DNA from: Acidobacteriota bacterium
GTDB taxonomy: Bacteria; Acidobacteriota; Vicinamibacteria; Vicinamibacterales; UBA8438
DNA length: 44,016 bases
Direction: 5' to 3'
NCBI GenBank assembly: GCA_026706755.1
Contig: JAPOYG010000224.1
Location: 1 to 44,016 of the forward strand
Positions 37,470 to 39,212 of the stretch are shown one piece after another. The translations under genes and the position numbers were made by a program. The notes under the pieces are model-generated. The model searched no databases, had not been told where the DNA came from, and saw only the letters and a program-made list of their open reading frames with translations. Each line of letters starts with the position of its first letter. Positions within the stretch are counted from its first letter, which is position 1.

Positions 37470-38599
37470 CCCGGCCCGGCGGACTCGAGGGCGTGGTCGC
37501 GACCTCGTCGGCGATCTGCCACATCGACGGCGAACGCGGCGTGCTGGCCTACTGCGGCTTCGACATCCACGACCTGGCGCGGGAAGCCACCTTCGAGGAG
37601 GTGGCGTACCTCCTGTGGCACCGGCGGCTGCCGTCGCGGGCCGAGCTCGGCGACCTGCGTTCGGCCCTCGCCGCGGCGCGCCGGTTGGAGGAGCCCTTCC
37701 TGCGGCATCTCCGCTCCTTCCCGCCCGCCGAGGCGATGGACTCGCTGCGCACGCTCGTCTCCCTGCTGGCGCACTACGACGCCGATGCGGGCGATCGCTC
37801 GCCGGAGGCGGCGTACCGGACCGCCGTGCGCCTCACTGCGCAGGTGGGCAGCGTCGTCGCCGCGTGCGGTCGTCTGGCGGCCGGGGGGGGCCTGATCGAT
37901 CCCGATCCGGGGCTGTCGCACGCCGCCAACTTCCTGTTGATGCTGACCGGCGACCGTCCGTCGGCGGAAGCGGCCCGGGCATTCGACGTGGCGCTCATCC
38001 TGCACGCCGACCACGAGCTCAACGCCTCGACGTTCGCGTCGCGCGTGACCGCGGCGACCCTCAGCGACGTCCACTCCGCGGTGGTGTCGGGCATCGGGAC
38101 GCTGAAGGGGCCGCTGCACGGCGGCGCCAACGCCGAGGTCATGAAGCTGCTGCTGTCCCTCGGCGAGGATGCCGACGACGGACGCGTCGACCGCGTGGTG
38201 CGGGGCATGCTGGCCGACAAGAAGAAGGTCCCCGGATTCGGGCACCGCGTCTACCGCACCGAGGACCCTCGGGCGACGCACCTCCGGCGGATGTCGGAGC
38301 GGCTCGGCGAGCGGACCGGCCGGACGCGCTGGTTCGCCATCTCGCGGCGGATCGAGGAGATCATGCGGGCGGAGCGCAGCATCGACGCCAACGTCGACTT
38401 CTACTCGGCGTCGACCTACCACCTGCTGGGGATTCCGATCGAGCTCTTCACGCCGGTCTTCGCCGTGAGCCGCGTGGCGGGCTGGACCGCTCACGTCCTC
38501 GAGCAGTACGCCAACAACCGGCTCATCCGCCCCCGCGCGGAGTACGTCGGGCCGGAGTACCCGCAGGCCCACGTGCCGCTCGCCGACCGGGCGCCCTGA
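37466..38599 (+). CDS. Citrate synthase (type II short form; citrate or 2-methylcitrate synthase)
   Basis: The enzyme condenses an acyl-CoA with oxaloacetate; acetyl-CoA gives citrate for the TCA cycle, propionyl-CoA gives 2-methylcitrate. The 377-residue protein carries the full catalytic triad: His218 (PLHGGANAEVM), His260 (PGFGHRVYRTEDPR) and Asp311 (NVDFYS), plus ILHADHELNASTFASR (178-193). GTG at 37466 overlaps the glycosyltransferase stop (GTGA) and starts the expected N-terminal GLEGVVATSSAICHIDGE region. Substrate choice between citrate and methylcitrate cannot be settled here; no prp genes are nearby. Confidence 0.94.
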   Translation: MTRPGGLEGVVATSSAICHIDGERGVLAYCGFDIHDLAREATFEEVAYLLWHRRLPSRAELGDLRSALAAARRLEEPFLRHLRSFPPAEAMDSLRTLVSLLAHYDADAGDRSPEAAYRTAVRLTAQVGSVVAACGRLAAGGGLIDPDPGLSHAANFLLMLTGDRPSAEAARAFDVALILHADHELNASTFASRVTAATLSDVHSAVVSGIGTLKGPLHGGANAEVMKLLLSLGEDADDGRVDRVVRGMLADKKKVPGFGHRVYRTEDPRATHLRRMSERLGERTGRTRWFAISRRIEEIMRAERSIDANVDFYSASTYHLLGIPIELFTPVFAVSRVAGWTAHVLEQYANNRLIRPRAEYVGPEYPQAHVPLADRAP

Positions 38600-38600
38600 C

Positions 38601-38684
38601 GGGCGCCTTGGGAGTTTCGCTTCGGGAACTCCTGGGCTTGGCGGGCGCCTTGGGTTTCGCACGGCGAAACTCCTGCGCCCGTCT
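38601..38684. repeat. Two tandem 42-bp units, each with a hairpin, after the citrate synthase gene
   Basis: GGGCGCCTTGGG occurs at 38601-38612 and again at 38643-38654, so the units are 42 bp apart. Each contains a hairpin: GGAGTTTC (38611-38618) with GGAACTCC (38625-38632), and GTTTCGC (38654-38660) with GCGAAAC (38664-38670). Both units then read ACTCCTG. The element directly follows the citrate synthase stop and may end transcription. It shares the AACTCCTGG end with the palindrome at 7216-7269. Confidence 0.65.
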
Positions 38685-38723: not shown

Positions 38724-38755
38724 TATAATGATGGGGCCGCAGGTTGCAGAAGGAG
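38724..38755 (+). promoter_or_regulatory. -10 box and ribosome site of the DUF411 selenoprotein gene
   Basis: TATAAT (38724-38729) is a perfect -10 box and stands out in this GC-rich sequence; no good -35 hexamer is seen. AAGGAG (38750-38755) is a strong ribosome site 7 nt before the ATG at 38763. These fix the start upstream of the in-frame TGA and show that expression signals are intact. Confidence 0.75.
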
Positions 38756-38762
38756 TGACGGC

Positions 38763-39212
38763 ATGCGCACCGCGATTCTCGCCACCGTTCTCGGGTTGAC
38801 CGGGGCGGGCCTCCTCGTCCCGGGCACCGCCGCCGAGGAGCCTGTCGTCGAGGTGTACAAGACGCCGACCTGAGGCTGCTGCACCAAGTGGGTGGTTCAC
38901 CTGCAACAGCACGGGCTCGAGGTCAATGCAACGGATGTACGGAGCGTGGTCGGTCTCAAGCAGCGCGTCGGCCTGCCGCGCCGCCTGGGGTCGTGCCACA
39001 CCGCAATCGTCGACGGCTACGTCGTCGAGGGCCATGTTCCGGCCGCCGACGTGAAGCGCCTGCTCGCGGAGCGCCCCGACATCGTCGGCCTGGCCGTGCC
39101 CGGCATGCCGGCCGGCTCGCCCGGCATGGAAGGCCCGCCCCCCGTCGCCTACAACGTCTACGCGTTCGACGAAGCGGGCAACATCGAGGTCTTCTCGTCG
39201 CACGGTCCGTGA
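38763..39212 (+). CDS. Exported DUF411 metal-binding protein, candidate selenoprotein with in-frame TGA (Sec37)
   Basis: DUF411 proteins are small exported metal-binding (often copper-linked) proteins with a conserved TCGCC motif. The frame runs from ATG 38763 to the stop at 39212, 149 residues, interrupted only by TGA at 38871-38873 (codon 37). Before it is a signal peptide (residues 1-24, ending GTAA) and VEVYKTPT; after it [14 protein letters not shown], then [18 protein letters not shown] (Cys78, His79, His91) and [13 protein letters not shown], all standard DUF411 sequence. The TGA therefore replaces the first cysteine of TCGCC, leaving Cys39 and Cys40. A SECIS-like hairpin follows directly. 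TGA is an ordinary stop in neighbouring genes, so the code is not altered. Selenocysteine insertion is inferred; a point mutation TGC to TGA or a base-call error is the alternative. Confidence 0.85.
38875..38910 (+). promoter_or_regulatory. Candidate bacterial SECIS element
   Basis: Starting 1 nt after the TGA, GCTGCTGCA (38875-38883) pairs with TGCAACAGC (38902-38910), eight of nine positions. Inside, either GTG (38888-38890) pairs with CAC around a loop starting GGT, or GGTG (38891-38894) pairs with CACC (38898-38901) around GTT. Both put a G at the start of the apical loop 17-21 nt after the TGA, which agrees with the general bacterial SECIS pattern (loop 16-37 nt downstream, G among its first two bases). 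Binding by SelB is inferred. Confidence 0.65.

Follow-up and report, generated by a model that had tools for sequence, protein, structure and literature searches.

The closest described counterpart of the protein considered here is CopG (DUF411, PF04214; structures 6wis and 6wje), for which binding of a tetranuclear copper cluster and copper resistance were reported (PMC7558416, PMC8456105). The cluster is held via a CxCC motif and two methionines, and the protein may oxidise Cu(I) and may hand copper on (PMC7558416), while for the R. capsulatus homologue CutG a modest role was described, mutants of its motif having barely affected CutO (PMC8456105). On the selenium side, Table 1 of a 2026 review comprises 119 prokaryotic selenoprotein families and subfamilies (PMC13188914). 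The metal-linked members of this set are the SO_0444 Cu/Zn efflux transporter, the E1-E2 cation ATPase, the CopZ-like (2Fe-2S) proteins, and the MerP-like transport protein. The protein proposed below would resemble these four as a selenoprotein with a link to copper or another heavy metal, but they belong to families and folds other than CopG.

The window (the whole stretch of Acidobacteriota DNA that was analysed, 44,016 nucleotides) contains a gene of the CopG family, which is flanked by the citrate synthase gene on one side and by lepA, then a signal-peptidase gene, on the other; its features are collected in Table 1. The first-pass annotation, made from the sequence alone, had described a single in-frame TGA in an otherwise intact DUF411 gene, placed exactly at the first Cys of the motif and followed by all the conserved residues of the family. 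This description was confirmed: the 149-residue frame has no further lesion, its product with Cys put at codon 37 scores 98.8 bits with Pfam DUF411 (PF04214) against a cut-off of 27, and residues 37, 39, 40, 78, 79, 115, and 122 are invariant in 36 sequences if Sec is taken as equivalent to Cys. The -10 box and ribosome-binding site that had been noted are present as TATAAT and AAGGAG, but the two-hexamer scan gave no sigma-70 promoter, so that the -10-like box alone stands as a promoter element. No terminator was found. The spacer between the stop codon of citrate synthase and the gene carries, at 38597-38673, two imperfect copies of GGGCGCCTTGGG along with an inverted repeat of 27 nt.

Table 1. 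Features of the putative Sec-containing copG gene in the window.
Feature	Position	Strand	Basis
Putative Sec-containing CopG/DUF411 gene, complete, 149 residues, own stop TGA 39210-39212	38763-39212	+	Frame, Pfam, orthologues, fold
Likely signal peptide, approximately residues 1-25	38763-38837	+	Sequence pattern; pLDDT 63-65 at residues 1-20
In-frame TGA, codon 37, proposed selenocysteine	38871-38873	+	Cys in 85 aligned loci, TGA in 49, TAA/TAG in 0
Cys39-Cys40, remainder of the (U)GCC motif	38877-38882	+	Invariant in 36 aligned sequences
Cys78-His79 of the SCHT motif	38994-38999	+	Invariant in 36 aligned sequences
Met115 and Met122 (GMPxGSPGM), invariant	39105-39128	+	Match to the CopG methionine pair (PMC7558416, PMC8456105)
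Ribosome-binding site AAGGAG	38750-38755	+	Sequence
TATAAT, possible -10 box without recognisable -35	38724-38729	+	Sequence
Candidate bacterial SECIS hairpin, 7 pairs, loop GUU 38895-38897, 21 nt after the TGA	38888-38904	+	Stem search, folding

By sequence and by predicted fold the protein is CopG. This is its sole solved relative by sequence (6wis and 6wje; phmmer 3.3e-32 for 6wis), and the AlphaFold2 model, in which codon 37 was set to Cys (mean pLDDT 90.6), retrieved 6wje in Foldseek with E 9.2e-16 and TM 0.91; the superposition on 6wje and 6wis resulted in TM 0.91–0.93 by target length at 43–44% identity. Likeness to CopG extends to the fold, the position of the CxCC motif, the methionine pair (Met115 and Met122), and the predicted export. 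The difference is that the motif appears as UGCC, its first Cys being replaced by the TGA codon (proposed Sec), after which a candidate hairpin follows. The previous suggestion of a "probably copper-binding" protein can thus be sharpened to the copper-resistance protein CopG, copper binding itself being predicted from the motif, and selenium as a copper ligand would follow naturally from the place of Sec within it.

The same TGA is found in the orthologues of two genomes of the same genus (G001, 95% identity; G002, 87% identity), and the nearest named relative by protein is the Vicinamibacterales (Acidobacteriota) metagenome-assembled genome L065 from the same family as the window's genome. 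Among 198 related genomes the protein is present in 92, with the in-frame TGA in 42 and Cys in 50, and within the family of the window's genome the gene occurs in 25 genomes, 24 of them with TGA. The sole Cys carrier of this family (G006, locus L048) nonetheless has selA, selB, and tRNA-Sec. When the named genomes were included, the codon-37 alignment comprised 134 loci with 49 TGA, 61 TGC, and 24 TGT codons and no TAA or TAG, so both homologues with Cys and other genomes with TGA exist at this position; L026 and L065 encode one identical protein, hence the 49 TGA loci represent 48 distinct proteins. The TGA carriers span at least five phyla, namely, uncultured Acidobacteria and some bacteria of four others. 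The search of viral contigs gave one relative, carrying Cys. Past the TGA the frame remains open for 112–119 codons to a real stop (TAG, TGA, or TAA) in 49/49 genes, and the occurrence of all three kinds indicates that TGA also serves as an ordinary stop in these genomes; it terminates 19 of the 49 TGA genes, including that of the window. In same-genus genes pN/pS was 0.11–0.18 downstream of the TGA, indicating clear purifying selection, and 0.29–0.71 in the signal-peptide half, where it is weaker. Judged by these comparisons, the TGA of the window's gene is neither a lone lesion nor a sequencing error.

The machinery for selenocysteine was found in part in the window's genome (713 contigs, 5.84 Mb): tRNA-Sec (selC) with anticodon tca, selA (509 bits, the match beginning at model position 51), and selD (306 bits) are present, but selB is absent from this assembly, where both the HMM and a congener's protein used as query retrieved only other translation GTPases, for example, IF-2 and LepA. 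In the same genus selB is above the cut-off in G002 and G003, and the match in G001 is no stronger than EF-Tu-like genes give; its absence from the window's assembly is likely an assembly gap. Under the criterion of a selA match with E < 1e-30 or selB above the cut-off, presence being scored by hand from tables, 42/42 TGA genomes and 37/50 Cys genomes were positive (p = 0.0002), and with selA alone 40/42 and 35/50, respectively (p = 0.002). In named TGA carriers from Gemmatimonadota (2), Chloroflexota (2), Methylomirabilota, and Myxococcota selA above the cut-off and tRNA-Sec occur together. The selA match of G025 is partial, as it is in L065, where tRNA-Sec was not found and which is apparently the same fragmented assembly as G025.

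Insertion of Sec in bacteria requires a hairpin shortly 3' of the UGA. The candidate hairpin of the window starts 14 nt past the TGA and by itself is no more stable than shuffled sequences (z 0.04). Across the family, with relatedness ignored, the longest perfect stem at the expected place has a mean of 7.7 pairs in TGA genes versus 5.6 in the synonymous-codon null, and 4.87 versus 4.82 in Cys genes, while the overall folding energy relative to the same null did not separate the two groups (p = 0.35). Three lineage types of hairpin can be distinguished among the TGA genes: type 1, with an apical loop starting with GGUC approximately 17 nt past the UGA, is that of most of the window's family; type 2, with a 3-nt loop, includes the window's gene; and type 3, with a 9-nt loop, belongs to other families. 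A few pairs are altered on both sides of the stem, among them 11/35 and 14/30 (G-C to C-G) and 14/26 (A-U to G-C).

In the protein tree, computed without codon 37, TGA genes are spread over several clades, the interchanges between TGA and Cys number at least 13 versus about 40 in shuffles, and branches with strong support require at least 4 of them. One Gemmatimonadota assembly holds both forms, the TGA copy L110 (JADFNB010000016.1) and the Cys copy L115 (JADFNB010000017.1). With regard to gene neighbourhoods, in L114 the Sec copG follows a copper P-type ATPase gene (869-2941), and in L156 a CusA/CzcA-type pump gene (1-2154) lies upstream near the Sec copG, while most Sec copG copies, that of the window included, have no adjoining copper genes.

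The reading that we prefer, with a probability of roughly 0.75 for the statement as a whole, is that of a selenoprotein CopG whose selenolate replaces one thiolate of the predicted copper site; its first part taken alone, that the gene encodes a selenoprotein, is almost certainly correct as far as comparative sequence data can indicate. That the TGA arose from a Cys codon by nonsense mutation in a pseudogene, or is an error of sequencing, is scarcely credible: TGA is indeed one base from TGC and TGT, and selB is missing in the window's assembly, but TGA recurs at the same codon in 49 loci of at least five phyla, where TAA or TAG never occurs, purifying selection acts past it, close relatives carry TGA as well, and the window's copy shows no additional damage. 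That the UGA is decoded as Cys or Trp instead of Sec, through near-cognate or reassigned reading, is very improbable, even though the coding data by themselves do not tell which residue is inserted and Cys at codon 37 would restore the usual motif; the use of TGA as a true stop in 19/49 genes, the window's among them, means that the genetic code is not reassigned, and selA or selB in TGA carriers and a longer downstream stem specific to TGA genes speak in favour of Sec.

A more serious competitor, which we nevertheless regard as unlikely, accepts a real selenoprotein of the CopG fold and assigns to it mainly thiol/selenol redox chemistry of the thioredoxin-like kind instead of copper handling. 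Such a role agrees with the thioredoxin-like fold, with the position of most Sec copies outside copper operons, with the predominance of Sec in redox sites (PMC13188914), and with the little effect of the CutG motif mutants on CutO in R. capsulatus (PMC8456105); on the other hand, Sec and Cys forms alike keep both methionines of the copper site and the spacing of CxCC without exception, and metal-export genes adjoin two Sec copies.

Under the preferred reading of a selenoprotein CopG, we infer recoding of UGA in the cell, export, copper binding, and a contribution of selenium as follows. Codon 37 would be decoded as selenocysteine by SelA, SelB, and tRNA-Sec with the help of the downstream hairpin, the signal peptide would export the protein, and the thioredoxin-like CopG fold would be adopted; the copper ligands would be the two methionines along with Sec37, Cys39, and Cys40, while Cys78 and His79 are invariant as well, and the selenolate may modulate the copper site or the redox reactions there (the balance of Cu(I) and Cu(II), in line with what has been proposed for CopG).

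The first-pass annotation did not count DUF411 among the commonly listed bacterial selenoprotein families, and in the 119-family table DUF411, PF04214, and CopG have no entry (PMC13188914). Copper and CopG are not mentioned in the deep-Sep paper, the NCBIfam scan of the protein gave no DUF411 selenoprotein model, and the literature search revealed no report linking DUF411/COG3019/PF04214 or CopG to selenoproteins; since the coverage of the literature is partial and GenBank annotation lay outside its scope, priority is not certain. The proposed protein shares with the known prokaryotic families (PMC13188914) the substitution of Sec for Cys in a metal or redox motif, the TGA with a candidate downstream hairpin, and the existence of Cys homologues, and differs from them in its UGCC motif and in being unlisted. 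On balance the data favour, with some reserve, a widespread, previously unlisted selenoprotein family whose exported members use Sec as a ligand of a multinuclear copper cluster, with repeated gains or losses in no fewer than five phyla. If so, the prokaryotic selenoproteome would be enlarged by one more family, and standard annotation would truncate Sec copG genes in many genomes. The family would also offer a natural candidate Cu-Se site beside its structurally solved Cu-S counterpart, and the availability of the latter would allow a direct test of how selenium alters copper binding and redox chemistry.
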